Below are positions 32,309 to 47,521 of a DNA stretch of 64,000 nt, in pieces. The stretch's first letter is position 1; each line of letters starts with the position of its first letter. Below the pieces are notes generated by a model, which saw nothing but the letters and a program-made list of their open reading frames with translations, was not told the origin of the DNA and searched no databases. Position numbers and translations under genes: made by a program. The DNA comes from Rubrivirga sp. SAORIC476 (GTDB lineage: Bacteria; Bacteroidota; Rhodothermia; Rhodothermales; Rubricoccaceae): positions 576,040-640,039 of the forward strand of contig NZ_MVOI01000006.1 in assembly GCF_002283555.1 (NCBI RefSeq), read 5' to 3'.

Positions 32309-32380
32309 GCCAACGTAGCTCAGGGGTAGAGCAGCTCACTCGTAATGAGCAGGTCGACGGTTCAAATCCGTCCGTTGGCT
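32309..32380 (+). tRNA. tRNA-Thr (anticodon CGT), island integration site
   Basis: A 72-nt cloverleaf: acceptor GCCAACG/CGTTGGC with discriminator T, D-arm GCTC/GAGC, anticodon stem GCTCA/TGAGC, loop CTCGTAA with anticodon CGT at 32,341-32,343, variable AGGTC, T-arm GACGG-TTCAAAT-CCGTC. CCA is not encoded. It reads ACG codons. The 3' half from the anticodon loop is repeated at 47,476-47,521, so the present 3' half lies inside the left attachment site of the island. It is followed at once by a strong terminator. Confidence 0.95.
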
Positions 32381-32382
32381 CT
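32337..32382. other. attL, left attachment site in the 3' half of tRNA-Thr
   Basis: The 20-bp core CACTCGTAATGAGCAGGTCG is identical to 47,476-47,495 and covers the anticodon loop and the right anticodon stem. Similarity continues for 26 more bases to the tRNA end with four differences (T-stem only). This is the classic arrangement of a tyrosine-integrase element inserted in a tRNA gene, with exchange probably in the anticodon-loop core. Confidence 0.9.
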
Positions 32383-32385
32383 CTC

Positions 32386-32423
32386 GGAAAACGCCCCTCA
32401 CGGTATCGTGGGGGGCGTTTTCC
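32386..32423 (+). terminator. intrinsic terminator after tRNA-Thr
   Basis: GGAAAACGCCCC-t-CAC / GTG-g-GGGGCGTTTTCC hairpin with a T-run built into the right arm, 5 bp after the tRNA. Because it lies inside attL, this terminator belongs to the island side. A second, different terminator follows attR. Confidence 0.85.
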
Positions 32424-32462
32424 GTTAGTATCGGCTTGGCGCTCCGAGAGGTCGATTTTGGT

Positions 32463-32486
32463 AAGTACGGCATATGTACGGCAAAT
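32463..32486. repeat. left arm-type motif pair (GTACGGCA direct repeats)
   Basis: AAGTACGGCATAT followed by GTACGGCAAAT: two copies of GTACGGCA at 11-bp spacing, about 105 bp inside attL. The same doubled motif occurs in the same orientation 105 bp inside attR (47,351-47,374). The position and duplication suit integrase arm-binding sites (inference). Confidence 0.7.
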
Positions 32487-32576
32487 CCGCGCGCCAACGT
32501 GCCCCTGCGTGCGGTCTACGGACGTCCCTGGCGGGCCTCATGTGGAGGCGTCACGTGACAGTCCTCGTCCCGACTC

Positions 32577-33053
32577 CTACATCCGTAGTGGCGCCCGCCT
32601 GTAACGGCTCGCGTACCACCGAGCCGCCCACCGTACTGGAAATGAGAGGATGAATGCGGGCACGACTGTGATCGCGGCCAGCATGGAGAGGATGAAACTC
32701 AGCGGAGAGTAGTTGATGGAAGCCTCGTACTCGGCGATGTCCTCGGCCGAAGGTGGGGGGCCTATGGTCCCTCCGATGTTGTAGGGCTCGCTCATGCTGA
32801 CTTCCCAATTGTGGACGTAGCGGTTTAGGCTGTGGAAGTCCATGACGTAGTGGCCGCTGGCGCCTACGAGCGCGGCGACGGCAAACCCGAGCACGGCATA
32901 GTCGCGGAGTTGCAACTTCCAACCGGCCGAGCGCCAGCGCTTGATCACGGCCGGGGCGAAGGCGAAGAGCGCAGTTAGCACGACTAGAGTCGCGACCGGG
33001 TACGCAGTAGAGACGGATAGCGCCAGCGGGAGCATAGCTGTTGCGGTACTCAA
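32577..33053 (-). CDS. island membrane protein of unknown function
   Basis: 158 residues. About four hydrophobic helices: LALSVSTAYPVATLVVLTALFAFA (split by P-V), YAVLGFAVAALVGASGHYVM and SFILSMLAAITVVPAFILSF, followed by a basic tail (VRWAARWYASRYRRAPLRM). The loop between helices carries an acidic segment (SAEDIAEYEAS). I recognise no family. It is the leftmost island gene, reads toward attL and ends about 90 bp from the left arm-type repeats. It could be superinfection-exclusion-like cargo, but nothing in the sequence shows this. Confidence 0.6.
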   Translation of the reverse strand: MSTATAMLPLALSVSTAYPVATLVVLTALFAFAPAVIKRWRSAGWKLQLRDYAVLGFAVAALVGASGHYVMDFHSLNRYVHNWEVSMSEPYNIGGTIGPPPSAEDIAEYEASINYSPLSFILSMLAAITVVPAFILSFPVRWAARWYASRYRRAPLRM

Positions 33054-33075
33054 GGGTTCTGACTCAGCCGTTCGA

Positions 33076-34131
33076 CTAGGGTTCGGCCGTCACCTCTTCC
33101 GCCTCGGGCGATGCGTGGGCTTCCCCAGACCGAGACGGCAGAGGCGCGCGGATGGGAAGGTCGGCGTAGACGCTTCGCCGGTCTCCACGGGCGGGGAGAG
33201 TGCGCCGGGCGGCGTCCATCTGGAGGCCGTGCACGTCGGCGCGGCGGCGTTCCTTCGCCTCGACCTCGCGGAGCTTGGCGACGGTGGCCAGGGCGCGGAG
33301 GTAGCGCGTCTGTGCGGCGCTTTGCCGACGCTCCCACATGGTCGCCGAGTCGTTGTAGAACGTCCCCGTGAGGGCGGACACGTAGCCCCGTCGAACGCCG
33401 TCGAGGATCAGGCGGGCGTCAGCGGCGTGCCGACACGCGGCGCGGACGAGCGGGCCGTCTGTCTCCTCCCGTAGATCGGCCTCCATCGAGGCGGCTTCGG
33501 TCTCAATGATTGTGCGGACGGCAACATCATCTCCCCCGGCGGCGAAGCGCGCGGCGTACTGCCGGGCTTGCTTTGCCGAGAGCCCGTAGGCGATGCGTGG
33601 GCCTTCGAGTAGGATGCGCCGCAAGTCCTCCACGGCGCCGGGAGGCGGATCGGCGCCCCGGCACTTCCCGATGGCCTCGGCGAGTCCGTCGAGAGCGTCG
33701 GGGTCGGTCTCCACAAGGGTGCCCCCCACGAACATCTCGGAGTCGGGCGCGGGAGTCTTCTTCTTTGGCATCGGGGCGGGCCTTTCGGCCGGGTGAGAGT
33801 CGAGGGTGAAGGGGGGCAGTGTGAGGCCACGGCGACGCCTCCACTGGCCACGGTGGGAGCGGTGCCCGGTGGCCACGAGGTAGGCATCCCTCCAGAGCCG
33901 TAGGCGGGCCTCAGAGGCGCGGAGGGCGTTGAGGGCGGCGTCGATGGGGCCGAAGGTGCAGGCCAACTCTCGGCGGCGTAGAGACGCCTCCAGGCGTCGC
34001 CCTTCCGCGTACTCGGCGATACACTCGGACACCGGGCCGGTACCGAGGTAGACGGACCGCACGCGCCCGTCCTCGGTGCGCTCCTTGCCGTAGTAGTAGC
34101 GTCGGCCGTTGCGGCGTGTCTCCCATCCCAT
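33076..34131 (-). CDS. uncharacterised island protein with MGW..RRYYYGK N terminus
   Basis: 351 residues. The first 45 residues (MGWETRRNGRRYYYGKERTE, VRSVYLGTGPVSECIAEYAE) match a motif I remember from uncharacterised proteins scattered through bacterial mobile elements (MGWERR..RYYYRKRR..GRV). The rest is a long alpha-helical, Ala/Arg-rich region with a proline/lysine break (PMPKKKTPAPD, about 119) and ends in a disordered acidic tail. A basic N-terminal wing plus coiled helices would suit DNA or DnaA/primase-like partners, but no function is established. It appears to be the last gene of the leftward transcription unit from the divergent control region. Confidence 0.7.
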   Translation of the reverse strand: MGWETRRNGRRYYYGKERTEDGRVRSVYLGTGPVSECIAEYAEGRRLEASLRRRELACTFGPIDAALNALRASEARLRLWRDAYLVATGHRSHRGQWRRRRGLTLPPFTLDSHPAERPAPMPKKKTPAPDSEMFVGGTLVETDPDALDGLAEAIGKCRGADPPPGAVEDLRRILLEGPRIAYGLSAKQARQYAARFAAGGDDVAVRTIIETEAASMEADLREETDGPLVRAACRHAADARLILDGVRRGYVSALTGTFYNDSATMWERRQSAAQTRYLRALATVAKLREVEAKERRRADVHGLQMDAARRTLPARGDRRSVYADLPIRAPLPSRSGEAHASPEAEEVTAEP

Positions 34132-34135
34132 CGGC

Positions 34136-34333: not shown

Positions 34334-34362
34334 GGGGTTACTCCGCGTTCATGGGGTTACTC
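34327..34362. repeat. 17-bp tandem duplication at a gene end
   Basis: CGTTCATGGGGTTACTC occurs at 34,327-34,343 and again at 34,346-34,362 (19-bp period). The second copy contains the stop codon of the leftward 94-residue gene, and the first contains the possible start of the 65-residue ORF. This looks like a recent slippage duplication. Confidence 0.8.
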
Positions 34363-34641
34363 GACGCGGTAGAGGGGACCGCTGAGGGTGGCCCCGGTCA
34401 ACGCGCCGATGATGTCGAGCTGGAGCGCGGCGACGCTGGGGCCGGTTTCGCGGACGGCGTTCGAGATCGCCGAGACGGTCGGCGGCTTCTTCCGGTCAGG
34501 GTTGAACTCGGCGACGGCAGCGGCGGCTTCCGCCTGTTTGAGCCGGGCGGCCTTGATGGCCTCGGCGGCGGCGTCGCGGAGTCCCTCGTAGTCGAGGTAG
34601 CTCCCCCGCTCTGGAGCGGGGGCAAGAGGACCTGTAGACAT
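34357..34641 (-). CDS. small island protein, possible HTH DNA-binder
   Basis: 94 residues. The central part, IKAARLKQAEAAAAVAEFNP followed by PPTVSAISNAVRETGPSVAA and LQLDIIGALTG, has the rhythm of a five-helix Xre/Cro-like domain (helix, turn around Q-A-E, recognition helix TVSAISNA, then IIGALTG). The similarity is weak and not diagnostic. Lying second in the leftward unit next to three operator dyads, it is a reasonable candidate for the local repressor (inference). Its stop lies in a 17-bp tandem duplication. Confidence 0.55.
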   Translation of the reverse strand: MSTGPLAPAPERGSYLDYEGLRDAAAEAIKAARLKQAEAAAAVAEFNPDRKKPPTVSAISNAVRETGPSVAALQLDIIGALTGATLSGPLYRVE

Positions 34642-34721: not shown

Positions 34722-35117
34722 TCAAGCAGCAGCACGGGCGGCCGTCACCGCCTCGGCACTGAGGGCGCGGAGACGGTCGGCCTCGACAGCGGGCGTCTTC
34801 GATACGCGGACGTACCCGGTCGCGGCCGTCACCGTTGCCAGCCCGCGCGAACGCTCGGCGGCGCGGAGGTCAGAGAGGTACTGAGCCGTCTCACGCTCTT
34901 CCTCAGAGTAGGCGTACGTCCGGCGGACGCGAGCCTCCAGCGTGAGACCGCGCACGCAGAACCGGCCGTCGTCTTCGTCCTCCAGGGCGCGGAGGATGAC
35001 GGGAGCGAGGGCGGACAGTTCGGCGTCGATCCGGTCGCGTTCCTCCCGGAGATCGAGGTAGCGGGCGAGGTCGTCGGGATCATCGAGTCCGCGAAGGGAC
35101 GGAGGGCGGGGAGTCAT
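34722..35117 (-). CDS. small helical island protein, unknown function
   Basis: 131 residues from ATG 35117; an upstream in-frame start would lie within the promoter. A charged coiled-coil-like N-terminal half (DLARYLDLREERDRIDAELS, ALAPVILRALEDEDDGRFCV) precedes a basic, Ala-rich C-terminal half with YAYSEEERETAQYLSDLRAA. The layout resembles small phage/plasmid proteins that carry a metabolised analogue of a DNA-binding helix, but no family is recognised. It is the first gene of the leftward unit; its leader shares the CACAAACCAACC sequence with the divergent gene. Confidence 0.55.
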   Translation of the reverse strand: MTPRPPSLRGLDDPDDLARYLDLREERDRIDAELSALAPVILRALEDEDDGRFCVRGLTLEARVRRTYAYSEEERETAQYLSDLRAAERSRGLATVTAATGYVRVSKTPAVEADRLRALSAEAVTAARAAA

Positions 35118-35141
35118 GGGGCGGGGTTGGTTTGTGTAGAG

Positions 35142-35171
35142 AAGGTACAGCGGGGGGCTGTATACAGTCAA
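35142..35171 (-). promoter_or_regulatory. leftward promoter of the divergent island control region
   Basis: On the minus strand TTGACT (35,166-35,171), 18-bp spacer, TACCTT (35,142-35,147), then CACAAACCAACC about six bases further, as in the opposite promoter. Operator dyad O1 fills the spacer and touches the -10 box. Confidence 0.6.
35146..35162. promoter_or_regulatory. operator-like dyad O1
   Basis: TACAGC-GGGGG-GCTGTA, perfect 6-bp arms with 5-bp spacer, inside the leftward promoter. It is the same geometry as O2 and O3. Confidence 0.75.
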
Positions 35172-35190
35172 GCTGTCCGCTCGAATCAGA

Positions 35191-35207
35191 TTCAGCCAAG
35201 GGCTGAA
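35191..35207. promoter_or_regulatory. operator-like dyad O2
   Basis: TTCAGC-CAAGG-GCTGAA, perfect 6-bp arms with 5-bp spacer, midway between the two promoters. One arm position differs from O1 and O3, with the matching change in the other arm. Confidence 0.7.
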
Positions 35208-35225
35208 ATAAATACAGTCATGGGC

Positions 35226-35254
35226 TTGACAAGTACAGCCCAGGGCTGTATATT
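35226..35254 (+). promoter_or_regulatory. rightward promoter of the divergent island control region
   Basis: TTGACA (35,226-35,231), exactly 17-bp spacer, TATATT (35,249-35,254), then CACAAACCAACC in the early leader and the ATG at 35,292. This is near-consensus sigma70, stronger than anything seen upstream of the chromosomal genes. O3 lies between the two boxes. Confidence 0.75.
35234..35250. promoter_or_regulatory. operator-like dyad O3
   Basis: TACAGC-CCAGG-GCTGTA, perfect arms, located between the -35 and -10 boxes of the rightward promoter. A protein bound here would block RNA polymerase. Confidence 0.75.
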
Positions 35255-35291: not shown

Positions 35292-36242
35292 ATGACCAAC
35301 ACGACCGCCCCCGCCTCCACCCTCAACCTCGACGACCTCCGCGACGAGTTCGCCCGTGACTTCGACCGCGTCAGCGGCGCGATCTGCGACGACGGCGCCC
35401 GCACCGCCGATGCCCTCTGGGTTCGCGTCTGCGACGAGTCCGGCGCCAACGCCGACGATCCCCACGCTTGGGCGGCCGACGACGTGCAGAAGGCCTACAC
35501 GGCCCTCGCGGAGATCGCCGAGAACGTCAGCGCCGACGATCTCGCCCGCGAATGCCGGTACATGGCCGACGATCTCACGGCCTCCCTAGAGGCCGACGCG
35601 ATGGAGGCGGAGGCCTTCACCGTGGACGCCGCGGCCGACCTCGGCGGCGTGACGCCCTTCCAGGCCCGCGCGCTCGCCATCGCAGCCGATGCCGTGGAGG
35701 TCGTCGCTCACATGGAAGCGGTTGGCGTCCGCTTCGACGCTGCCGCGAAGGTGGACGACGCGGAGACCTACACGATGGCCGCGGGCGGCTCGGCGCTCGC
35801 CATCCCGTCGAAGCTCGCGGCGACGACGGTCTTTCAGGACAACCTCGCCACGCTCGCGGAGGTCATCCACCCCCGCGCCTACTACCCGGCGCGCATCCAC
35901 CGCGGCGACAACTGCCTGATGGTCCTCGCGGACATGGTCCCCGGCGACCCCATGACGGCGGAGGTCATCGGGCAGATTCAGCCCAAGCACGAGGCGTGGA
36001 TTCGGCCGATCCTCCGCACCGGGGAGCACAACGTCACGACGGACCGTGTCCCCTCGATCCGCGTCTACGTCACGGCGGTGACCGGCGGCACGCCCGGCAA
36101 GCCGACACACGGGTGCAACATCGTCTTCACCGGGGCGGCTCAGGCCGTCCGGGACGCCCTCCGCGCCGAGGCACGGGACGCGGCGCAGGAGGCCGCGTAC
36201 GGCTCCGGGATCGTCGCCTACATCGACGCCGAGACGGAGTAG
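35292..36242 (+). CDS. acidic island protein of unknown function under operator control
   Basis: 316 residues from ATG 35292, fixed by the strong promoter and leader. The first 130 residues are very rich in Asp/Glu and Ala (LNLDDLRDEFARDFDRV, ADDVQKAYTALAEIAENVSADD, EADAMEAEAF). The rest is a mixed alpha/beta region with PARIHRGDNCLMVLADMVPG and SIRVYVTAVTGGTPGKPTHG. I recognise no domain. High acidity and a tightly controlled strong promoter recall anti-restriction or DNA-mimic proteins, but that is speculation. It is the only gene of the rightward unit and ends at a strong terminator. Confidence 0.7.
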   Translation: MTNTTAPASTLNLDDLRDEFARDFDRVSGAICDDGARTADALWVRVCDESGANADDPHAWAADDVQKAYTALAEIAENVSADDLARECRYMADDLTASLEADAMEAEAFTVDAAADLGGVTPFQARALAIAADAVEVVAHMEAVGVRFDAAAKVDDAETYTMAAGGSALAIPSKLAATTVFQDNLATLAEVIHPRAYYPARIHRGDNCLMVLADMVPGDPMTAEVIGQIQPKHEAWIRPILRTGEHNVTTDRVPSIRVYVTAVTGGTPGKPTHGCNIVFTGAAQAVRDALRAEARDAAQEAAYGSGIVAYIDAETE

Positions 36243-36321: not shown

Positions 36322-36726
36322 CTAGAACGGCACCCCGCCCGGCGGTAGCGTCACCATGCCGCCGGGTGTGTCGCCGATCAACTCGTCTCCGCGGAGCGCG
36401 TCGAGGACCGAAGCGACCGCGTCGGCGTCGAGCTGGAGGTAGGCCCCGGCTTCGACGGCCCGCGCCATGCTGAACCGCTCCCCATCCATCGCCAGGTAGA
36501 ACCGGGCCGCGCCGGGTGCGCTCGCCTCGGCACGCTGGAGGAAGGGGGGACAGGGAGCGCCACCGGGGAGACCGACGCGAGACCGCTCGCGCGTCTTGCG
36601 CTGGATCGAGGCGCCGAGGTCGGCGACGGTCCGGCGCTCCTCCGGTGTCAGCCGCTCATGGCGCTCGGCAGAGAGCGAGTCGAGGGGGTTCCAATCGGGC
36701 GGGATCGGGGACGGACGGCGGGCCAT
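36322..36726 (-). CDS. small unrecognised island protein
   Basis: 134 residues from ATG 36726 (MARRPSPIPPDWNPLDSLSA); upstream in-frame starts overlap the res region poorly. It has a helical RHERLTPEERRTVADLGASI segment and a C-terminal half with FYLAMDGERFSMARAVEAGA and YLQLDADAVASVLDALRG, which looks like a winged-helix or small alpha/beta module. No family is recognised. It lies 76 bp after the res stop in the same direction, so it may be co-transcribed with the restriction genes and may serve or regulate them. Confidence 0.5.
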   Translation of the reverse strand: MARRPSPIPPDWNPLDSLSAERHERLTPEERRTVADLGASIQRKTRERSRVGLPGGAPCPPFLQRAEASAPGAARFYLAMDGERFSMARAVEAGAYLQLDADAVASVLDALRGDELIGDTPGGMVTLPPGGVPF

Positions 36727-36802: not shown

Positions 36803-39799
36803 TCAGGCAAATGCCGTGACGTTGCGAATCCGGTCGAGCAGGATCTGAGGATCCCGGCATTCGATGAACCTCCAGTGTCCGAGTTGACCCCACCGGGAGA
36901 CGGCCCTGCACCATCGCTGCGCAGCCTCGTGCTTCGCCCGGTCCTGTTCGGTCTGACGTCCCTTGGTCTCGATGATGAGCATCGAGCCGTCCGCGAGGCG
37001 GACTAAGAAGTCTGGGAAGTAGGCGTGCGAGGTCCCCAGGAACTCATAGGCGATGCTCATCTCCACGCCGTCGTTCTTGACGTAGCACTGGATGAGCCCT
37101 TCCAGAGCCGCTTGCTCCAGACGGAACGCAGCCGCCTGCTCCCATTGCCGTGTGTCTGCGACGACTTGGTTGACGTGGCTGTGCATCGTCGGATAACACG
37201 GCCTCGTCGTCTTGAAGTTGACGGACGCCGTCGAGCCAGTCGGCCGGTATCTGTTCAAGACCGGGAGGAGAGGGGCCTCTCCTCCGGCGTCGTCGGGCTC
37301 GATGGCGTCGAGGAGCCGCTCGATGACAAGCTGGGTATAGCGTTCGAGGCCTAACTCGCGAGGGTCCACGTCGCGGAAGCGGACCTTCCGTCGTACGTAC
37401 TCCTCCACAAGAGCATAGACCTGAGGGAAGAGTTGATGCCGCGACCGGCCTTTGAGCTTGGGCGCTGCGCCTTCACCGTCGCCCCCCACGTACACCGTGA
37501 GCCGGTCCACGATCTGGCGTGCAATCTCAAACTGGATCGTCTGTAGGTGCGTCGTCTCGTAGTACGCCCGGCGGTCTTGTAACTCGGTCTGGAGTTGGCC
37601 GAGAGCGGCAGGCGTACCCGTCTGGTAGCCCACCTGCGGCTTGACGAACGCAGCTGTCGGGGTGAGGTCTGGAGCGACCACGACCTCCTCCATCGCCCCC
37701 ACGTCGGCTCGGATAAGGTTCTGCTTCAGCGCGAAGGCGTAGCCCTCCACGATGGGGAAGCGGATCTCAAACGCCGAGCGTTCCTCCAGGGCCACGACGT
37801 GTTGCTTCGGCTTGTCCTCGGGCGCCTTCTTCTCTTTCTCACGTCCCCGGAAGGGGATGACTGAGAACGGGATGCCGTACACGTCCACGTATTCCTCAGT
37901 CAGCCGTCCCGTCTCGGGGTCGGGCGTGTAGTCCATGCGGCGGAGGCCCCGACCGACGACCTGCTCGCTGAGGAGTTGGCTGCGGAAGGCGCGGAGGCCG
38001 AGGATGTGGGTGACGTTGTTGGCGTCCCATCCCTCCGTGAGCATCTGGACCGACACCACGCACCGAACCTGCTCGCCGGGCTGACCGACCTCGCCGACCG
38101 TTGCGATGAGGCGGCGGAGTGCTTCGGCCACGTCGCTCTTGCTCTTGGACGGGTCCTCGCTCTCCGCTTCGGCAAGGAGCTTGGAGTCGATTCGAACGGT
38201 ACGGAGTTGGCCGGGTGTGTTGGCGAACTCCGGGCGGACCGCACTCGGGCCGTAGACCGTCTCGCCGTCCTCGACACGCTCGCCGGAGATCTTCTCGTAG
38301 AAGAGCTGCGCGAGGTCGGTGTTGTCGAGGACCACGATCATGACGGGCGGGACGTTCTCCTGCCCCGGTGCTGCCTCAGCATAGTAGTCGAACCGTTCCT
38401 TCCACTGCGAGGCCAGCGTCTGCACGGCGTCCTCGGCTTCGCGCCATGCGGCATCCGGCTTCGGCTTTCCGCCGGGGAGTTTCTCGCCGGGCTGGAGCGC
38501 GTCCATCACGCTGTCCCACAGCGCGAAGTATTTCGGCTCCGGGCGGCCGGTCGTATCGGAGACTGGAAGGCGGGGCACCTTCGTGATCCCGCTCTCGATG
38601 GCGTCCACGAGCCCGAAGTCCGAGACGATCCACGGGAACGGGGTGCCCTGCGCATAGCCGCTCGACTGGAGGTAGAACGGGGTCGCCGAGAGGTCCACGC
38701 AGAAGGCGACCCCGCACGCGGCGTTGATCTGGTCGAGGCCGCTCACCCAGACGGTCGCCTCCTCCCAGTCGTCCTTGCTCTCACCCTTTGCCCGCTCCTC
38801 CATCGACTTCGGCCGGTAGGCGTGGTGGGCCTCGTCGTTGAGGACCATGATGGGGCCTGCGTCAGCGAGATCGCCGAGGCGCTTCTTCGCGAATGCCTCT
38901 GGGCTCTCCTCACCCTTGTTCACCACCCGGTACGTGTTGTCCCCCTCCTTGTGTGGCGACTCTGGGAGGAAGTTGTGCCAGTTGGTCACGAGCACGTCGC
39001 CTGCGTGGAGGCCGTCTCGGAGCGTGCTCGGGACGACATCGAACTCGTCGTAGTAGTTGCTCTCACGGTCGGGGCGGAGAACCTGGAGCCGCTCCTTGAC
39101 CGTGAGGTTCGGGCAGACGATGAGAGCGGCGGCCGGGAATCGCTCGTCCGTGGGGTTCCGGTGCCGGTTACAGAAGGCCCACGAGATGAGCATCGCCATC
39201 ACGACCGTCTTGCCCGAGCCAGTCGCCATCTTGCTTCCGTAGCGGCGGAGGCCGGGGAGCGAACGGTCGGCGGGCTGGTCGAGGACGGTGGGCACGAGCG
39301 ATCCCATCATCTGCTCTGCGAACTGAGGCTTCTTCCCCTCTGTGAGGGCGTCGAAGTCCTCGCGGCTGAGCTGCGGGGTGAACCTCGGCTTCCGGCCCGA
39401 GCCCAGGATCTCCGTCAGGTACACAACGGTCTCGACGGCCTCGCGCTGGCAGAAGAACAGCCGCCGGGGGAGGTCGTCGCGCGACCAGTGCCGGAGGAGT
39501 TGCTTGGTGACGGGCGTGGCCGCCTCGTAGCCGCTCTCTCGCCAGCGGCGAACGTCGGCGCGGAGCCGGTTGACGAGAGGGAGGTCGTCTCGGCTTTCCT
39601 CCGTGAAAAGGGCTGTCTGTGCGGTTCCGGTCTTCTCGGTCTTGTACCAGTAGAATGCGTCGCGGCGGCCGGTCTGCTCGCTCGGGGCACCCGTCTGCTC
39701 ATCGTAGACCCAGTGCGAGGTCGGTTCGTCGTAGGGGTTGTTGAGGATGGGCTGCGCGACCGGCTGGATCGGCAGTTCCTGCTGTCCGTCGTAGGTCAT
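36803..39799 (-). CDS. res: type III-like restriction endonuclease subunit (Res)
   Basis: 998 residues from ATG 39799, fixed by the ATGA overlap with mod. Superfamily-2 helicase core: Walker A SKMATGSGKT (about 245), DEAH-type VLNDEAHHAYRP, SATP (VDLSATPFYL), and motif VI QVVGRGLRRMDY. The C-terminal PD-(D/E)XK nuclease reads YFPDFLVRLADGSMLIIETKG (PD, E and K in place). In type III systems Res uses ATP to move from or communicate between unmethylated sites and cuts nearby, always in complex with Mod. All key motifs are intact, so the system looks functional. Confidence 0.9.
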   Translation of the reverse strand: MTYDGQQELPIQPVAQPILNNPYDEPTSHWVYDEQTGAPSEQTGRRDAFYWYKTEKTGTAQTALFTEESRDDLPLVNRLRADVRRWRESGYEAATPVTKQLLRHWSRDDLPRRLFFCQREAVETVVYLTEILGSGRKPRFTPQLSREDFDALTEGKKPQFAEQMMGSLVPTVLDQPADRSLPGLRRYGSKMATGSGKTVVMAMLISWAFCNRHRNPTDERFPAAALIVCPNLTVKERLQVLRPDRESNYYDEFDVVPSTLRDGLHAGDVLVTNWHNFLPESPHKEGDNTYRVVNKGEESPEAFAKKRLGDLADAGPIMVLNDEAHHAYRPKSMEERAKGESKDDWEEATVWVSGLDQINAACGVAFCVDLSATPFYLQSSGYAQGTPFPWIVSDFGLVDAIESGITKVPRLPVSDTTGRPEPKYFALWDSVMDALQPGEKLPGGKPKPDAAWREAEDAVQTLASQWKERFDYYAEAAPGQENVPPVMIVVLDNTDLAQLFYEKISGERVEDGETVYGPSAVRPEFANTPGQLRTVRIDSKLLAEAESEDPSKSKSDVAEALRRLIATVGEVGQPGEQVRCVVSVQMLTEGWDANNVTHILGLRAFRSQLLSEQVVGRGLRRMDYTPDPETGRLTEEYVDVYGIPFSVIPFRGREKEKKAPEDKPKQHVVALEERSAFEIRFPIVEGYAFALKQNLIRADVGAMEEVVVAPDLTPTAAFVKPQVGYQTGTPAALGQLQTELQDRRAYYETTHLQTIQFEIARQIVDRLTVYVGGDGEGAAPKLKGRSRHQLFPQVYALVEEYVRRKVRFRDVDPRELGLERYTQLVIERLLDAIEPDDAGGEAPLLPVLNRYRPTGSTASVNFKTTRPCYPTMHSHVNQVVADTRQWEQAAAFRLEQAALEGLIQCYVKNDGVEMSIAYEFLGTSHAYFPDFLVRLADGSMLIIETKGRQTEQDRAKHEAAQRWCRAVSRWGQLGHWRFIECRDPQILLDRIRNVTAFA

Positions 39800-42750
39800 C
39801 GCGCGGCCTCGGTCTGGTAGGTAGCGCCCCCGACGGTGTGGACACGGAGGGCCTCGTTTCCGCGCGGGTCGATCACCTTCACGGCGACACGCTTTCCGGG
39901 CTTGAAAGGGAGGCTCTCGGTCCCGCTCAGTCGCGCGAAAGCGTCGGCGTCTACCTGCGTCTTGAGCGCGGCTTTCAGCTTCTTCCACGCGGTCTTGTCA
40001 GGGAAGAAGGCCTGGCTGACGCAGAACGTCCGGCCGTCGTAGTCGTGATCCACGAACCACGCCGCCACCTTCTGAGCCTTCGTGGGCACGAGGGCGTTCT
40101 TGACGGGATCGTACACGTCCATGCCCTCCATCGTTACGCGAACATGGCCGTCCTCGTCTGCCTCGACGCTCGTACGCGGCTGGCCGAAGACGGTGAAGAG
40201 TTGGGACTGCGCTGGCTTCTTCAGCAAGTCGTCCATCACCACGTCCGGCGCGACCGTCGCGAGGTGCGTGCGGACCCGGGGATTGGAGTCCGCTTCGATG
40301 GCGGCCTGGGCGGCGCCGTCGATGTTGAACCCTGCGAAGAGGAGGTGGTCGTAGCCGCCCCGGCTTGCGGCGAACAGGGCTTCCTCGACCTGGACCGCCG
40401 TGATGGGGCCGTGCTCGGGGCCGAACGAGACGGCGATGCGTTGCTCGGTGCCGTCGCCGGAGGTCCATTCGCCCTCGGCGTGGAGGACCGAGTGTGCCAT
40501 TCGGTCGAGCCGGTCGAATCCCTGCGTCGCGTTGCCGAGGAAGCTGGCGCCGTCCTCGCGGAGGAGCCGCGTGAGCTTGTCGAGGTAGGCCTCGGCGTTC
40601 GCAGCGTCAACGACGGCGTCCGCCGATTCGCCGTTGCCGAAGGAGCCATCGAGCGCGTCAGGGGCGCCGCCGATGGGACTCTCGGTCGCATCGGGAAGCG
40701 TGGCTTCGGCCGGGAGTACGGCCTCGACGGTGAAGGGGCCGGACACGCGGACGACCCCCTTCTCTACTTCGGGCTGGTCGTAAAGCGTTTCGTGCGCTGC
40801 ATTCGCGGCGACGGTTTTTTGCACCTCGTCGCGCTTCTTCGCCCACGCCTTCCGGTACGCCGCGACGGCTTCGGCGAGGGCATCAGGGTAGTCCTCGTCG
40901 GCGTCGAAAGGGACAGTCCAATGTTCGAATGTGTCCTCGGGGAGTACCCAGCGTCGCTCGTCTGCGTCGGTTACCGCGCGCTTGCCTTCCTCCTTCTCCT
41001 TCGCTTTGAGCTTGGCCGCCAGCTTCGAACGGAGCGAGCCGTCCACCTCGGCCAGCGCCTCGTCAAGCTGGCCGAGGTGGCCGTCGAGAACCTCACGATG
41101 TTTGTCGAGGGCGGCCCCGAGCGTCGGGTGGTTCGTGATGGCCCCCATTGTGATGTGAGGGACCGTCCGGTGCTTGAACCCTCGCCCTGGGTCGTTGGAT
41201 TCGTCGGCCTTGACGGCGAAGTAGGGGTAGCTCGCTGTGAGAAGCCGCTGGCGTGCGATTGCAACGCCGACGCGGCTCGTGTCGATGGTGATCCACCGAC
41301 GGCCCCACGTCTCCGCGACGTAGGCCGTCGTGCCGCCGCCGCACGTGGGGTCCAACACGAGGTCGCCCGGATCCGTGGTCATGAGCAAGCAGCGTTGCAC
41401 CACCTTCGTGGAGGTCTGGACGACATACTTCTTGCTGGATGCCCCTTGCGTGTCGGTCCACATGTTCGTCATCTCCTGGACGGGATAGTCGTCTAGGCGG
41501 AATACGTAGCGTGGAACGTTGCGTGGCACCTCTATACGGTCTGCGTTTAGCAGCTTTTCGAACCCTTCTGGATTGGTCTTCCAACTCTTTCCGCTTGCGG
41601 GTGTGTAGTCCTCTCCCTTGATCTCGGCATCGAATACGCAACTCTCCGTCCGGCCAGCCGAGACCATGTCTGTCAGCGTGAACGGCTTCGATTCTTTCGG
41701 GAGCGGCGACTGCCGGTCTCGCTCGCGCTTCGTCATCTTCCGCCGCGCGCCGTTCGATAGTTCTAGGTTGGTGAACTGTGTTCCACGGCCGTACTCCCGC
41801 TCTTGGTAGAGCTTGTGGAACTTGACGTGCTCAGCGTCCCGGGCGTACCACACGAGGTAGTCGCCGATTCCAGCGAGGTACTTCGCTCGGAGCGGGATCT
41901 TCGTTCGGAAGGTGATGACAGACATAAAGTTCTCCGCCCCAAATACCTCGTCTAGGATGGCCCGAACGCGGTGGAGGTTCTCGTCGCTGATCTGGACGAA
42001 GACGCTCCCACGCTCGTGGAGCATCTCGCGGGCCATCACGATTCGGTCGCGGAGGTAATCGAGGTAGCTGTGGATGCCGAGCCGCCACGTATCTCGGTAT
42101 GCCTTGACCATCTCGGGCTCGCGCGTCAAGTGGCTCTCGCCGTCCTTTACGTTCTTGTCGCCGACCTTCGGCTGGAAGTTGCTCGCATAATTGATCCCGT
42201 AGGGCGGGTCGATGTAGACCATTTGGACCTTCCCCGCCAGCCCCTCGCGCCGAGCGAGACTCGCCATCACCTGGAGCGAGTCGCCGAGGATGAGACGGTT
42301 GGCCCAGTCCACGTCATGCTCGTAGAACTTGACGGCGTCGCCGAACGGGAGTTGGGGATCGGCGAAGAGGTCGCGCTGCACGTCCTCCCGCTGCGCCGCC
42401 CGAATGACGGCCTGGGCGCTCACCCGCTCGTGGACGTTGAGTGCTACGGGCTCTACCTCGAAGGCGTGCTTCTCTCGCTTGCCCGTCCATTCGAGCCACG
42501 GCCGAGTGTGCTTGAGCAGTAGCCGCGCCTCTTCCTCGGAGAGAGGCCGCTCCATCGCCTCGGCGAGCAGCCCATCCAGGTCGTCGGCCTCGCCGGTCTG
42601 GTCAAAGCGGAGCTTGGGCGGGAGGTGCGGGTCGTAGCGGTGGACGTGCTTTGGCGTCTCCGCCACGCGTCCTTGCGCCGCAAGCCCGGCGGGCGGGAGG
42701 TTCTTGCGGGTGGCGTCATGCCGGTAGTCTTGAACGTCGCGCGAAGCCAT
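39796..42750 (-). CDS. mod: type III-like DNA adenine methyltransferase subunit (Mod)
   Basis: 984 residues. Beta-class order: catalytic motif IV in VQMVYIDPPYGINY (DPPY), then a variable region of about 160 residues (target recognition, about 283-443), then the SAM-binding motif I in LVLDPTCGGGTTAYVAETWG. DPPY indicates N6-adenine methylation. The C-terminal 450 residues are a large additional domain, much longer than in EcoP1I-type Mod as I recall it. Mod gives both modification and sequence specificity to the complex. The putative recognition region is visibly less GC-rich than the rest of the gene. Confidence 0.9.
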   Translation of the reverse strand: MASRDVQDYRHDATRKNLPPAGLAAQGRVAETPKHVHRYDPHLPPKLRFDQTGEADDLDGLLAEAMERPLSEEEARLLLKHTRPWLEWTGKREKHAFEVEPVALNVHERVSAQAVIRAAQREDVQRDLFADPQLPFGDAVKFYEHDVDWANRLILGDSLQVMASLARREGLAGKVQMVYIDPPYGINYASNFQPKVGDKNVKDGESHLTREPEMVKAYRDTWRLGIHSYLDYLRDRIVMAREMLHERGSVFVQISDENLHRVRAILDEVFGAENFMSVITFRTKIPLRAKYLAGIGDYLVWYARDAEHVKFHKLYQEREYGRGTQFTNLELSNGARRKMTKRERDRQSPLPKESKPFTLTDMVSAGRTESCVFDAEIKGEDYTPASGKSWKTNPEGFEKLLNADRIEVPRNVPRYVFRLDDYPVQEMTNMWTDTQGASSKKYVVQTSTKVVQRCLLMTTDPGDLVLDPTCGGGTTAYVAETWGRRWITIDTSRVGVAIARQRLLTASYPYFAVKADESNDPGRGFKHRTVPHITMGAITNHPTLGAALDKHREVLDGHLGQLDEALAEVDGSLRSKLAAKLKAKEKEEGKRAVTDADERRWVLPEDTFEHWTVPFDADEDYPDALAEAVAAYRKAWAKKRDEVQKTVAANAAHETLYDQPEVEKGVVRVSGPFTVEAVLPAEATLPDATESPIGGAPDALDGSFGNGESADAVVDAANAEAYLDKLTRLLREDGASFLGNATQGFDRLDRMAHSVLHAEGEWTSGDGTEQRIAVSFGPEHGPITAVQVEEALFAASRGGYDHLLFAGFNIDGAAQAAIEADSNPRVRTHLATVAPDVVMDDLLKKPAQSQLFTVFGQPRTSVEADEDGHVRVTMEGMDVYDPVKNALVPTKAQKVAAWFVDHDYDGRTFCVSQAFFPDKTAWKKLKAALKTQVDADAFARLSGTESLPFKPGKRVAVKVIDPRGNEALRVHTVGGATYQTEAAR

Positions 42751-42837: not shown

Positions 42838-43722
42838 TCACAGGCACATCCGATGTGCGGCCTCCGCGACTGCATTGTCGAGTTCGGCGAGTAGAGGAGA
42901 GGGACGGGTGAACTTGGGCTCTCGGGTGATCCGAAGCACCTCGTTCCGCCTGTCGCTAGCCCGTTGCCTCGAAATGATGCGTGCCTTGCGATGCGCCGCG
43001 ATCTCAGCCAGCACGTTTCCGACTCCCCGGTGATAGATCTGCTCGACGGCGAGGGCACGAAAGAAGTCTGTAGCACGGAGGTCCGTCCGAAGCTCCCGCC
43101 CCTTCTCCACCTTCCCGTACCAGTCGCTCCACTTCCCAGCGACGTGCAAGCGGAACGCCTCCTCGCAAGTGTTGGAGAGCGTCAGCCCTTTGCCGAGCTG
43201 CTCGGCAACGCCTCCGTTCCGGTAGGACAGCTCTAGCCTCAGCAGTCCCCCAGGCACAGAGCACCCCGACTGCGCTCCCTTGTCGTAGAAGTGGTATGAA
43301 CGGCGATGGGTGATGAACTTGAGCGTCTCGCCTCCTCCGTTTGGGTCTTGCACCGTGAGTCGCTTGTGCCGCCCCAATGCCCACAGGAGAGGGAGGTAGA
43401 CGCATACCGGAGTTGAGAGCGAGAGGTCGGCGTAGATCTCAATGCGAGTGACCTCCGCCGTGCCCATGTCGAAGCCGAGAGCGTCCGACAGCCTCTCGGT
43501 TGCGAGAGTCGCCACTCTCGACGGAACCGCCCCGTCAGCGTATCTGGCGAGACCTCCCCGGAGCCGAAGCGTGTCGTTTCTCAGTGAGTAGCTGAACGGG
43601 CCGAGTGCGCCTCTCCAAATGACCGACCCGTCTGGAAGCGTGACCCTTGACGGAGGCGGTAGCCGATTTAGCACAGCCTCAGCCGAGGGCACGTAGGCTC
43701 GGAGGTTGACGCGATCAATCAT
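42838..43722 (-). CDS. phage/plasmid replication initiator, gene II/X-like
   Basis: 294 residues from ATG 43722 (MIDRVNLRAYVPSAEAVLNR), the typical opening of phage/plasmid replication proteins of the II/X (CRI) family. The frame upstream of it is low-complexity. Other family-like features are VTRIEIYADLSLSTPVCVYL, ITHRRSYHFYDKG and LLRLELSYRN. Such proteins nick a plus-strand origin to start rolling-circle replication. Catalytic tyrosines cannot be assigned with certainty. GC content is lower than in flanking chromosomal genes. It lies downstream of an HTH gene and near 22-bp iteron-like repeats. Confidence 0.65.
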   Translation of the reverse strand: MIDRVNLRAYVPSAEAVLNRLPPPSRVTLPDGSVIWRGALGPFSYSLRNDTLRLRGGLARYADGAVPSRVATLATERLSDALGFDMGTAEVTRIEIYADLSLSTPVCVYLPLLWALGRHKRLTVQDPNGGGETLKFITHRRSYHFYDKGAQSGCSVPGGLLRLELSYRNGGVAEQLGKGLTLSNTCEEAFRLHVAGKWSDWYGKVEKGRELRTDLRATDFFRALAVEQIYHRGVGNVLAEIAAHRKARIISRQRASDRRNEVLRITREPKFTRPSPLLAELDNAVAEAAHRMCL

Positions 43723-43819
43723 CCCGTCTGTCCGGTCTCTTGCCCCCTCGCGCGGGTTCTTAGTGGTGCCACCAGAGCCCGTCCGCCTCGGTGTGCCAGA
43801 GGGGCAAGAGAGAGGGGTC

Positions 43820-44155
43820 TCACAGCGTCCGCGCATTGCGCCGGATGAACGCCTGCAGCGCCGACGGCTCGAACCGGCGCACGCCCCGCCCCGTGCCGAT
43901 CCGCACAACGGGGATCTCCCCCGTGGCGACGAGGGATTCGACGGTCCGCTCGGACACGTTGAGGCGCGCGGCGGCTCCAGCGAGGTCATAGAGGGGCGGC
44001 TCTCCTATCGACGGGCGGTCTCTAGCGGCGGCGAGTTCCTCGCGGACGGCGCGGCGGAATAGGGCCTCTAGATCGGCGAGAGCGTCGGGGGGCGGCGTGT
44101 CAGGGTCCGGGGAGGGCACGGCGGCATCGGCGCGGCGCGTCCGGTACGAACGCAA
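43820..44155 (-). CDS. excisionase-type HTH DNA-binding protein
   Basis: 111 residues if translated from TTG 44155; a GTG near 44,119 (VPSPDPDTPPPDALADLEAL) is an equally good start. The C-terminal 55 residues are a MerR/Xis-like winged HTH (HTH_17): YDLAGAAARLNVSERTVESL, VATGEIPVVRIGTGRGVRRF. An N-terminal helix (ALADLEALFRRAVREELAAA) may dimerise. Lying directly upstream of the replication initiator, it could regulate replication or act as a recombination directionality factor. Confidence 0.75.
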   Translation of the reverse strand: MRSYRTRRADAAVPSPDPDTPPPDALADLEALFRRAVREELAAARDRPSIGEPPLYDLAGAAARLNVSERTVESLVATGEIPVVRIGTGRGVRRFEPSALQAFIRRNARTL

Positions 44156-44156
44156 A

Positions 44157-44195
44157 GCGGGCTCCCCTTCGGTGCCGCCGAGGTGGGGAGCCCGC
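44157..44195. terminator. strong hairpin upstream of the HTH gene
   Basis: GCGGGCTCCCC and GGGGAGCCCGC form a perfect 11-bp stem with a 17-base loop, flanked by CGCAAA and TTGCG that can extend it. It may terminate the leftward 342-residue gene, or form a structured replication-origin hairpin given the nearby initiator and repeats. Confidence 0.6.
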
Positions 44196-44315
44196 TTGCG
44201 CTCGTCCCGGGCGTACCGGGCGGAAGGAAGATCGGGAGGGGCCGGAGGAGTGGGACCTCAGCAGCCGTCCTCGGCGGCGATCACAGGATGCAGGGCCGTC
44301 AGCCGTCATTCCTAG

Positions 44316-44367
44316 GTCATCCTCCCGTCAATTGCCCGTCATCCTCCCGTCAATTGTCCGTCATCCC
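44316..44367. repeat. 22-bp iteron-like direct repeats
   Basis: Two full 22-bp copies (44,316-44,337 and 44,338-44,359; core TCATCCTCCCGTCAATTG, differing by one base, C or T, after it) and the start of a third (GTCATCCC). Directly repeated 22-mers next to a replication initiator gene resemble origin iterons. The array reaches the stop of the 342-residue gene at 44,361. Confidence 0.75.
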
Positions 44368-45389
44368 GGCGGGTCCTCTCCAACGGCGGCGAAGAGTAAC
44401 GCGATGAAGCCCTCGAACCCGTCCGCTCCCTTGTAACCCAACTGTCGTTTGACCGTTCGCAAATTGGCCTCTGTGAGATCCGTGGCGTCCCGCAACGCTT
44501 TGAACGGTGCCCCCCGCTTTCGTCGGAATCGAGAGGGATCCCGCCGAAACGCCTCCCTCAACTGATCGGCATACTCGTCGGCTATGTATCCCGAGACTCC
44601 GGGGGCTGGGGGCGGTGTCGCTCCCTCTCCCTGACGTGCTGTCGAGGGTGCAGTCTCGGCTGTGGGCTTAGGGGGCCGAGGAACAAAGGGCTTCACGACG
44701 CCCGCCCTTACGAGCACGTCGCCAGGCCAGAGCGAATACAGCTTGCCACGGACGATGCCGCGATCTGGGAAATTACTCTCGGCCTTGTAGGTCTCACGGG
44801 TTCCGTCATCCTCATTGTCCGGTAGAGGCGTCTCGATGCGTTGGTTTCGGGCGTTTCCAGGGAATACCGCGTTTCGGTTCGCCTTCAACTGGCTTCGAAC
44901 AAATCTTACGAGATCGGGATAAGTGTCGCCGAACTCGCTTGTCGATGCATACGCGCGGTGAGCCGCCTCCTCATACCGATCCATTCGTTCACGTAGTCCC
45001 GCAAGGTATTCGAGTCTGCGAACCGGAGTCGGGAGGGTGTTGAGCCACTCCTCTACTTCTATCTGTGGTGGAGGCTGTAGTGCCAACGCGGCGGGTAGGG
45101 CAGAGGCGCGCTTCTCCTCAGGTGTTTGGGTGGACGGGAGTCCCGACAGCAGGCTCGGCCCTCTTTGTCTCCAGTCCGGCACCTGTGCTTTCCTCAGTTC
45201 GCCCCGCTCCAATGCACTATTCATTTGGTTACGGAGTGAGGCCGGATCATTCGAGGCGTGCCGTTCGAGATAGGCTTGGTCTGCTTCCACGACCGTTCTC
45301 AGATAGGCGCGCTGGTCACCGACTAGCAGTAGTTGATCCAGCTCCGCAAGGACGGTCCCCCAACTAGGTCGGCGGTACGGAGTGCTCAT
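44361..45389 (-). CDS. uncharacterised island protein, helical
   Basis: 342 residues. Helical N-terminal half (YRRPSWGTVLAELDQLLLVG, RMDRYEEAAHRAYASTSEFG), a proline/threonine-rich disordered stretch near 235-270 (PRPPKPTAETAPSTARQ), and a basic C-terminal 70-residue region (YADQLREAFRRDPSRFRRKR, TEANLRTVKRQLGYKGADGF) that may bind nucleic acid. No family is recognised. GC content is lower than the chromosomal average by eye. It is divergent from the small HTH gene and integrase, with only about 100 bp between. Confidence 0.6.
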   Translation of the reverse strand: MSTPYRRPSWGTVLAELDQLLLVGDQRAYLRTVVEADQAYLERHASNDPASLRNQMNSALERGELRKAQVPDWRQRGPSLLSGLPSTQTPEEKRASALPAALALQPPPQIEVEEWLNTLPTPVRRLEYLAGLRERMDRYEEAAHRAYASTSEFGDTYPDLVRFVRSQLKANRNAVFPGNARNQRIETPLPDNEDDGTRETYKAESNFPDRGIVRGKLYSLWPGDVLVRAGVVKPFVPRPPKPTAETAPSTARQGEGATPPPAPGVSGYIADEYADQLREAFRRDPSRFRRKRGAPFKALRDATDLTEANLRTVKRQLGYKGADGFEGFIALLFAAVGEDPPG

Positions 45390-45487
45390 GTTCTACGGCG
45401 GCGGAATGAGTCGAGAGGATACCGACGAGAGTTGCGACGGCGCAAGACTCTTGTTAGCTTGGAGTCCTCCCGCTTTCCCGCTGACAG

Positions 45488-45715
45488 ATGGCAGGCACAG
45501 ACTTTATCTCTACCGCCGAGGTCGCACGCCGGAAGGGGTGCACCGGGATGGCCGTCCGCAACGCGATCCAACGCGGGGACCTCAACGGCCGGAAGCTTGG
45601 CCCCGTCTGGGCCGTCGCCGACGACGAGTCCCTCGCCGCGTGGCAAGTCAAAGAAACCGGCGGGCGCACGCATCGCCAGAACCGGGATGCTGAGATAGCC
45701 AACGAGGAGGCATAG
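45488..45715 (+). CDS. small HTH protein upstream of integrase (excisionase candidate)
   Basis: 75 residues. FISTAEVARRKGCTGMAVRN followed by AIQRGDLNGRKLGPVWAVAD is a MerR/Xis-like HTH with a short wing. The end of its frame carries GAGGAGG, which lies 7 bp before the integrase ATG and may serve as a ribosome-binding site, unusual for this genome. Stop to integrase start is 2 bp, so the two are coupled. Size and position are typical of recombination directionality factors. Confidence 0.7.
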   Translation: MAGTDFISTAEVARRKGCTGMAVRNAIQRGDLNGRKLGPVWAVADDESLAAWQVKETGGRTHRQNRDAEIANEEA

Positions 45716-45717
45716 CC

Positions 45718-46911
45718 ATGGCACAGACGAGCACCTACCGCGCCGAACTTCCCGACGGCTCCCGTATCGAGCGGTCTTACCGCGTCGAGGAGGGAAAGAA
45801 GGTCCCTCGTGGCAACTGGCAATGGGTCGTGTACGATCCTGACCGGCGGCCGTCTCGGAAGCGGGTGAACCTCCGCACGAAGGACAAGGCAGCGGCCATG
45901 TCCCGTGCCCTCGAACACGCGCGCGACCGCTCCCTCGGGACCTTCGACCCGTGGGGACAGGCCGCCTCGACGGGCGTGTCGGTCACCGAGGCGGCGGCGG
46001 CCTACATCGCCAGTCAGAAGCGCGCAGGCCGGGCCGAGGGCACGGTGAACTCAGCCGAGCGCCTCCTCTCTGCGTTCGAGCGGTCGCTTCCCGCCGGGTG
46101 CAACGTTGCGCACGTCGAGCCCATGCACGTCGAGCGGTTCGTCTCAGCGCCGAAGCCCGGCAAGGAAGGGAAGCCCGGTCCGCCCAAGTCGGCCGGGACC
46201 CGTCGGCGGTATCGCGCGGTGCTCCGTCACTTCTTCGCGTTCTGCCAGCGGCGCGGCTACACCCGCACCGATCCGACGGCCGATCTGGAGGCCCCGACCG
46301 GCCGGGCCAACCGCCGCGATCACGTCACCGAGGCGGAGGCTGCCAAGATGCTTCGCACCCTCGACGCCGCCGAGGTGCTTGACGGACGTTCCTACGGCTG
46401 GCTCCGCGACTGGCTCGTCTTCGGCATGGGCACAGGTCTGCGGCCCGGCGAGCAAGCGGGCCTTCGCTGGAGCGACGTGAGGCTCTCGGAGGGAGCCCTC
46501 CGCGTGCGGGGGACAAAGACCTCGAGCTCCGCTCGCCCGGTCCCCGTTGCGGGCGACGCGCTCGCCGTGCTCCGCCAGCGGTCCGAGGCCCGCGCCGACG
46601 AGAGCGATAGTCTCGTCTTCGTCGGCTCCCGAGGCGGGGCCGTCGAAATGCGCCACCTGTCGAAGCGGTTGAACGCCCTAGCGGAGTCGGCCAAGGTGAA
46701 GAAGAACGTGACGGCCTACAGCCTCCGGCATTCCTACGGGACGCGCATGGCAGCGGCGGGCGTGCCTCTCCTCGACCTCGCTCGGATCATGGGCACGTCG
46801 GTTGCGATGATCGAGCGGCACTACGGGCACTACTGCCCCGAGCGCGGCGCGGCGCACGTCCTCCGCGTGTTCGGCACAGAGGCTATGGCATCCACCTCGA
46901 CTTCCGTCTAG
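45718..46911 (+). CDS. int: tyrosine recombinase/integrase
   Basis: 397 residues. Arm-binding N-terminal region (about 1-85), SAM-like core-binding domain (SVTEAAAAYIASQKRAGRAE to GYTRTDPTADLEAP), and catalytic domain with Arg in GMGTGLRPGEQAGLRW, Lys in RVRGTKTSSSARPVPV, the H-x-x-R box as YSLRHSYGTRMAAAG and nucleophile Tyr in MIERHYGHY. All catalytic positions look intact. It lies about 560 bp from attR and reads toward it, as usual for tRNA-integrating islands. Confidence 0.95.
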   Translation: MAQTSTYRAELPDGSRIERSYRVEEGKKVPRGNWQWVVYDPDRRPSRKRVNLRTKDKAAAMSRALEHARDRSLGTFDPWGQAASTGVSVTEAAAAYIASQKRAGRAEGTVNSAERLLSAFERSLPAGCNVAHVEPMHVERFVSAPKPGKEGKPGPPKSAGTRRRYRAVLRHFFAFCQRRGYTRTDPTADLEAPTGRANRRDHVTEAEAAKMLRTLDAAEVLDGRSYGWLRDWLVFGMGTGLRPGEQAGLRWSDVRLSEGALRVRGTKTSSSARPVPVAGDALAVLRQRSEARADESDSLVFVGSRGGAVEMRHLSKRLNALAESAKVKKNVTAYSLRHSYGTRMAAAGVPLLDLARIMGTSVAMIERHYGHYCPERGAAHVLRVFGTEAMASTSTSV

Positions 46912-46915
46912 CCAG

Positions 46916-47329
46916 ATGCCGACGACGCTTCCCCTCGTCTCTCCCGACCTCCACGTCTTGATCTATGAGGGCTTCGAATGGACAGGGGGGGCGTACGTCG
47001 TCCGGGCAGTGGACGAGGCCGGGCAGCCGTTCCGAGTGTCTCGGCTTCTCGGCACCGACGAGACAGGAGTGCTCTACATCGGGAAGGCGAAGGTCTTTGG
47101 GAGCCGGGTAGTCCACCTGCGGAAATGCGTCCTGCCCAAGTTCAAGACGTCAAACCACGCGGTCGCCTACAAGCTCGATAACCACGACGGGATTCGGTCC
47201 GCCTTCCCACCGGAGTGCATGGTCGTTGACCTGTACGGGGATCAAGACCCGAGGGGGAAGGAGAAGGCCCTCCTCTTGGAGTACTTCTACGCCTTCGGCG
47301 AGTCGCCCCCATTCAACAAGTCCGACTAG
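46916..47329 (+). CDS. GIY-YIG-like nuclease-domain protein
   Basis: 137 residues, starting 4 bp after the integrase stop. Reading order of candidate motifs: GVLYIGKAKVFGSRVVHLRK (Y-I-G with the conserved Arg), SNHAVAYKL (His), KEKALLLEYFYAFGESPPFN (Glu and terminal Asn). This matches a minimal GIY-YIG fold, with the first GIY as the weak GVL. Such nucleases cut DNA with one metal ion. Tight coupling to the integrase suggests a mobility or element-competition role (inference). Confidence 0.6.
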   Translation: MPTTLPLVSPDLHVLIYEGFEWTGGAYVVRAVDEAGQPFRVSRLLGTDETGVLYIGKAKVFGSRVVHLRKCVLPKFKTSNHAVAYKLDNHDGIRSAFPPECMVVDLYGDQDPRGKEKALLLEYFYAFGESPPFNKSD

Positions 47330-47350
47330 CAGAGCCGTCGAGTCCGGCAG

Positions 47351-47374
47351 AAGTACGGCAAATGTACGGCAAGG
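47351..47374. repeat. right arm-type motif pair (GTACGGCA direct repeats)
   Basis: AAGTACGGCAAAT followed by GTACGGCAAGG, in the same orientation and spacing as 32,463-32,486. It is about 105 bp inside attR. Confidence 0.7.
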
Positions 47375-47475
47375 GGCTGCGGATTCTTGCAGATCCTCGC
47401 GGAGGCACTCTGCACAAATCTCCGATTTTAAGGCGGTCGGGCCGGTTTGGATCTGTCGCGACACCCCGCTTGACG

Positions 47476-47521
47476 CACTCGTAATGAGCAGGTCGTCAGT
47501 TCAAATCTGACCGTTGGCTCT
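47476..47521. other. attR with displaced tRNA-Thr 3' half
   Basis: The core CACTCGTAATGAGCAGGTCG is identical to attL. The following 26 bases repeat the T-arm and acceptor end with T-stem GTCAG/CTGAC where the intact gene has GACGG/CCGTC. Both pair perfectly. This is the other end of the island; the chromosomal tRNA terminator follows. Confidence 0.9.

Follow-up and report, generated by a model that had tools for sequence, protein, structure and literature searches.

What kind of element occupies the tRNA-Thr gene of Rubrivirga sp. SAORIC476, and how would it move? We addressed this question in a 64,000-nucleotide stretch of the genome (contig NZ_MVOI01000006.1, positions 576,040 to 640,039 of the forward strand; hereafter the window), where the tRNA gene is followed by a type III-like restriction-modification (RM) pair, a replication initiator, an integrase and several unassigned genes. 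The original prediction had recognised an integrative element here but could name no type for it. Our analysis indicates that its RM pair, initiator and operator-controlled genes belong to a backbone with swappable slots that recurs across several elements, including two within this genome; no type could be named because the element belongs to a previously unnamed family, so far found only in this order. The best overall reading is a phage-satellite-like integrative element with rolling-circle replication, to which we assign a probability of roughly 0.6. Gene calls were made with a simple codon model, and whole-genome statements rest on searches of the genome's contigs.

Boundaries of the element at tRNA-Thr(CGT)

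ARAGORN located an intact tRNA-Thr(CGT) at positions 32309-32381 (+), as anticipated. A 46-bp direct repeat with 91% identity spans the anticodon-to-T-arm part of this gene, its two plus-strand copies lying at 32337-32382 (attL) and 47476-47521 (attR) with a spacing of 15139 bp. The first 20 bp (32337-32356 in attL) are identical in both copies and occur only twice in the window, in agreement with the identical core and near-identical tail described originally. The four mismatches all fall in the T-stem and keep its pairing (GACGG/CCGTC versus GTCAG/CTGAC). Because these are compensatory changes, each copy is a working tRNA 3' half, the two deriving from different alleles, a pattern that chance would not be expected to yield. 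The attR copy matches the tRNA-Thr of a congener (genome G002) at 46 of 46 bases. If integration took the course usual at tRNA genes, the element would have brought the allele that now forms the 3' part of the tRNA gene, from the core onward, and attR would be the displaced half of the host gene. Joining the flanks in silico reconstructs an attB that ARAGORN again folds as tRNA-Thr(CGT). A hairpin follows each copy; the one behind the reconstituted tRNA, an inverted repeat at 32385-32424 (+), is an element-borne putative terminator, and a similar hairpin stands behind attL in G002 and G006.

Short repeats inside both ends further support these boundaries. On the left (32463-32484, +), GTACGGCA occurs two times, 11 bp apart; on the right (47340-47372, +), two of three 11-bp repeats are GTACGGCA, and positions 32465/32476 and 47353/47364 are its sole plus-strand occurrences in the 64 kb. 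Paired 11-bp repeats of element-specific sequence lie likewise inside the ends in the window's genome (G000), G002, G003, G006 and G029, the repeat being TCAGGGCA in G002, TTCGGACA/TTCGGACG in G003, GTACGGCA-like in G006 and GTACGGCA in G029. They look like arm-type integrase sites and tie both ends to one element. The segment was also said to lack the palindromes of the surrounding chromosome, and a rough check is consistent with this: the commonest palindromic 8-mer, CGTCGACG, is found 18 times in the window and never inside the element.

As in other tRNA-targeting elements, a tyrosine integrase lies between direct repeats, which take in the 3' end of the tRNA gene. Comparison with related genomes, proposed along with the original prediction, brought to light related elements with an integrase of the same group, located in this or another tRNA gene, but no syntenic empty tRNA-Thr site, the genes right of tRNA-Thr differing in every relative. 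Two genomes (G004, G008) carry a tRNA-Thr without a nearby second copy, but its neighbouring genes differ. A conserved gene for a 419-aa protein right of attR (window 47629-48888) sits away from tRNA-Thr in relatives, and the right flank has therefore been rearranged. Collectively, the compensated repeats, the arm-type sites, the folding attB and the related elements make it virtually certain that the 15.1-kb segment from tRNA-Thr(CGT) to position 47521 constitutes an entire integrative element with defined ends, as the sequence had first suggested.

Integrase and replication module

The tyrosine integrase is encoded near the right end (45718-46911, +; Phage_integrase 1.4e-20). Its catalytic residues had been described as intact, which holds for R242, K267, R337 and Y369 and fails for two canonical positions, since the HxxR histidine is replaced by Y334 and the box-III His/Trp by T360; both substitutions are invariant across four aligned integrases. 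Close relatives are those of G002 (63%), G029, G003, G007 and G006. Between the two tRNA-Ala integrases, from G003 and G029, identity is 71%; with the full-length tRNA-Thr integrases they share 53-59%. In viral contigs, relatives reach only 25-26% identity. The small helix-turn-helix (HTH) protein that had been coupled to the integrase is indeed there: p75, HTH-like (45488-45715, +) and conserved in the G003 and G007 elements, ends 2 bp before int.

Farther upstream, an excisionase-like HTH_17 protein (xis; 43820-44119, −; HTH_17 3.1e-09, phrog_66) precedes on the same strand the gene of the replication initiator Rep (42838-43722, −). Rep itself gave no direct match to a family profile, including Phage_CRI, the family of phage G2P, to which it nonetheless appears related: Phage_CRI matches were obtained for two of its aligned homologues (best 2.8e-13), and its structural model (predicted local distance difference test score 83) aligns with RepDE, of the rolling-circle initiator fold, with Z 12.6 over 229 residues. 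The modelled fold and the intermediate homologues confirm the predicted initiator, apparently one of the rolling-circle type, and it is rather likely that the element replicates in this way. Ahead of xis-rep, a 13-bp perfect inverted repeat (44155-44197) may be a terminator or a candidate replication origin.

Operator array and HIRAN-like protein

The left part of the element contains a divergent control region. Its leftward side encodes p94 (34357-34641, −), which we infer to be a Cro-like HTH repressor and which always takes this side, and the backbone protein p149 (34722-35117, −, from an assumed ATG start; a longer TTG open reading frame (ORF) reaches 35171). Rightward, p316 (35292-36242, +) is followed by p162 (36322-36726, −; 134 aa from ATG). 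Between p149 and p316 lies an array of putative operators (35146-35250) composed of three good palindromes of the TACAGC..GCTGTA class (35146-35162, 35191-35207 and 35234-35250) and two more, degenerate in sequence, that start at 35163 and 35213. One operator falls inside the spacer of a sigma-70-like p316 promoter (35226-35254, +; TTGACA-17-TATATT, 11/12). A palindrome in this spacer recurs in the G004 element, where its sequence differs, and in a second element of the window's own genome (the C11 element), which encodes a near-identical p94. Across the whole genome, the exact palindromes occur only at the window and C11 elements. In G003, whose p94 homologue is 61% identical, palindromes of the same class were seen by eye at the same place, next to weaker promoter hexamers. 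This arrangement makes repressor control of the p316 promoter through the operator array probable. SOS control of the operators was considered and rejected, as the exact sites are limited to the two elements and there is no chromosomal regulon.

HIRAN domains are best studied in eukaryotic fork-repair enzymes. Moderate evidence assigns a HIRAN-like domain to the C-terminus of p316 (about residues 169-282): the protein has no Pfam match, and the top Foldseek row is the HLTF HIRAN domain, but with an E-value of only 0.056; VIA-align superposed the p316 model on HLTF HIRAN with Z 8.0 (84-85 residues, 2.2-2.4 A), HIRAN domains making up five of the top six. A search of 114 genomes from the order gave p316 relatives in 11, and in a 395-genome sample of the phylum such relatives are confined to members of the order. 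Neither p316 nor Rep has a relative in viral contigs, phage records or 72,556 plasmid records. The family gives this HIRAN-like protein a repeatable place in mobile elements.

A family of related elements with exchangeable slots

The C11 element (G000:C11:38319-50362; L075/L076) measures 12.0 kb and sits in tRNA-Leu(CAG) between 40-bp exact repeats. It shares with the window element 2.54 kb of DNA at 91.9% identity, in which p94, p149, the operator array, p316 and p162 all lie, and has an integrase of different type (Arm-DNA-bind_5). DruF-like and DruM-like genes lie directly outside it (L075:4848-8143, G000:C11). The G004 element repeats the layout of this control module and also encodes a homologue of the unassigned protein p351 (33076-34131, − in the window). 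In G003, an element in tRNA-Ala(GGC) with its own att repeat and an attR 18.8 kb away encodes homologues of p149, p94, p316, p162, xis, p75 and int; p316, p162, xis and p75 keep the same order here and in G007 (record DUBD01000195.1, a Bacteroidetes metagenome-assembled genome), where a second tRNA-Thr copy is present. G029 has a tRNA-Ala-like attR, and the two ends of the G002 element lie on two contigs. The targets of the family thus comprise tRNA-Thr, tRNA-Ala and, in the window's own genome, tRNA-Leu. A reduced relative in G006 (L056:6460-12383) spans 5.9 kb between tRNA-Thr and its second copy and has a truncated integrase; its cargo consists of P-type metal ATPase and cation efflux genes.

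The backbone common to the family consists of the putative HTH repressor, p149, the operator array, the HIRAN-like protein, p162, a defence slot, xis with a replication gene, and the integrase. Two of these positions are swappable between elements. The gene after xis encodes a rolling-circle initiator in the window, C11 (24%) and G004 (36%) elements, a DUF3987 protein in G007 and an AAA_25 protein in G002. The defence slot of the window element holds the RM pair, whose type III-like nature was correctly foreseen: the restriction endonuclease (36803-39799, −; ResIII) scores 922.9 bits with NF046055, above the NCBIfam equivalog cut-off of 800, and so belongs to the BPTD_3080 family, and the DNA methyltransferase gene (39796-42750, −; PDLC03632 2.7e-163, N6_N4_Mtase) overlaps it. 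The pair thus resembles other RM systems of this family, for which our literature search retrieved nothing, and differs in being cargo, in a slot that the tRNA-Leu element fills with an MmeI-like type IIG enzyme and the G003 element with PD-Lambda-2_C-like and AAA_21 genes. Two elements with a common 2.5-kb control module and different tRNAs, integrases and restriction systems coexist in one genome and show how islands exchange defence cargo and replication genes. A literature search of incomplete coverage found no satellite or integrative-element family described for this group. What had been an unclassifiable island becomes a family of delimited elements whose backbone can be tested.

The remaining genes of the window element include a small putative membrane protein near the left end (32577-33035, −; an ORF supported by its coding score, with an uncertain start), the p342 ORF (44361-45389, −), of low coding score and no assignment, and p137 (46916-47329, +), also unassigned. 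Outside the elements described so far, the 3' half of tRNA-Thr in G003 is repeated 72.7 kb away (L051-L054, G003:C1:1844897-1917653), delimiting an island whose integrase is of another group and which also carries metal-resistance-like genes and a homologue of p316. Distant elements in G019 (L081:4088-12079) and G015 (L082:3306-16113) carry an integrase, a toxin-antitoxin-like pair, a lysozyme-like gene and a HIRAN-like protein.

Mode of transfer

A complete prophage was rejected, since the element has no capsid, tail or terminase large subunit (TerL) gene, and so was a conjugative element, no type IV secretion, relaxase or FtsK gene being recognised in the element or in the sister proteins scanned. 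The sister element in G003 encodes a terminase small subunit (TerS; Terminase_4 57 bits in Pfam, phrog_83 3.7e-25 in PHROGs) adjoining an HNH protein, while a scan of its proteins recognised no TerL, capsid or tail. This terS is the only Terminase_4 gene of that genome, where the TerL_ATPase profile has no match. The window's genome, in turn, harbors an HK97-like prophage (G000:C6, about 795-832 kb; L103-L105) with portal, protease, TerL, TerS (Terminase_4), HNH and tape measure genes, which is a candidate helper. The TerS proteins of this prophage and of the G003 element share 34% identity, and over 42 aa a 69-aa protein encoded nearby in the latter shows 67% identity to a further G000 prophage protein, a likeness that fits the pattern of a satellite taking a packaging gene from a phage. 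Helper-dependent, satellite-like spread is the likeliest route because a sister element combines a terminase small subunit and HNH protein with no recognised structural genes; taken by itself, satellite-type transfer has roughly even odds.

Several observations weigh against a phage-satellite-like element. No terS, HNH or capsid-size gene was recognised by Pfam or PHROGs in the window copy, and comparing the DNA of the element with that of the resident prophage revealed no common packaging site, the matches being weak and chance-like. Neither p94 nor p149 matches a Pfam or other family, replication genes are not the same between elements, and the putative repressor lies about 11 kb from int, unlike in phage-inducible chromosomal islands (PICIs). 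Among the chance-like matches, a weak one of ~64 bp at 76% identity (E-value 0.005), which directly precedes terS both in the G003 element (L015:3663-3725) and in the G000 prophage (L104:19789-19852), may be a packaging site.

The non-autonomous size, the tRNA target and the lack of structural genes would also suit an integrative and mobilizable element whose initiator, in line with the modelled fold of Rep, doubles as a relaxase or nicks an origin-of-transfer (oriT)-like site while a conjugative helper carries the DNA. We regard this as rather unlikely: the scans of element proteins recognised neither a relaxase nor a coupling protein or mating-pair gene, although Rep could act as a relaxase and no oriT search was made; DUF3987 and AAA_25 genes in the rep slot of G007 and G002 fit poorly with a conserved mobilisation role, and the G003 element has its terminase small subunit. 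Rolling-circle initiators and RM systems are likewise common on plasmids, but to read the element as a rolling-circle plasmid that integrated and uses its RM pair for addiction is very improbable given that the 72,556 plasmid records hold no relative of Rep or p316 and that the backbone adjoins a tRNA gene or accompanies an integrase in the elements found. Nor does the locus look much like a once-mobile defence island, now fixed, in which selection acts on the RM pair only. In its favour, the integrase departs from the canonical residue at two of six positions and the G006 relative has shrunk to 5.9 kb with its integrase truncated; however, the frames of int, xis, rep and p316 are open, all four aligned elements retain these substitutions in the integrase, and the arm and att sites are intact, which renders this explanation improbable.

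For the phage-satellite-like element, we propose that the integrase, aided by a small HTH excisionase, would recombine the 20-bp core and excise a circle; insertion would keep the tRNA gene working, the element bringing its own 3' half. The p94-type repressor would bind the palindromes, one of them between −35 and −10, and shut the p316 promoter. Upon derepression, xis-rep would act and the circle would replicate by rolling circle. The RM pair would be a passenger, either protecting the host from phages or addicting it. As with phage satellites, spread would depend on a helper, and the window copy, with no recognised terS, would need the helper's own terminase. More tentatively, and at somewhat less than even odds, the family could be an independent lineage of phage satellites in this Rhodothermales-type order. 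Such satellites would be built around a HIRAN-like protein that an operator array controls, replicate by rolling circle, exchange their replication and defence modules, and be packaged via terS acquired from HK97-like phages such as the resident one.

Comparison with known systems

The element shares features with several known classes. Like actinobacterial integrative and conjugative elements of the pSAM2 type (PMC3218068), it places a xis-rep-int module in a tRNA gene and would replicate in rolling-circle fashion; it differs in belonging to another phylum and in that no FtsK/SpoIIIE-type DNA translocase was matched among its proteins. With integrative and mobilizable elements (PMC5704250) it has in common a non-conjugative, integrative nature, but no mobilisation gene was recognised in it. 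P4-type and other phage satellites are, similarly, small integrative elements with defence genes and no structural genes; in contrast to P4-type satellites, Pfam and PHROGs scans recognised no P4-type primase in the window element, and its Rep and p316 have no match in phage records.

PICIs measure 12-15 kb, lack phage structural or lytic genes, sometimes have terS, depend on a phage for induction and packaging, use an att site never used by prophages, and order their genes with the master repressor and int on one side and xis and replication genes divergent on the other (PMC6092414). The window element has the size (15.1 kb) and, in Pfam and PHROGs, no match to such genes. Its order is different, p94 lying at 34357, far from int, and xis-rep (42838-44119) next to int at 45718; it is also distinguished by its rolling-circle-type initiator and HIRAN-like backbone protein. 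We do not file it as a PICI, since the gene order departs from theirs and no terS was recognised in the window copy. The likeness is nevertheless broad, extending to att-bound ends, an integrase, a xis-like gene, a replication gene, a divergent, presumably repressed promoter, defence cargo and, in one sister, terS, so that the window element may work like a PICI.

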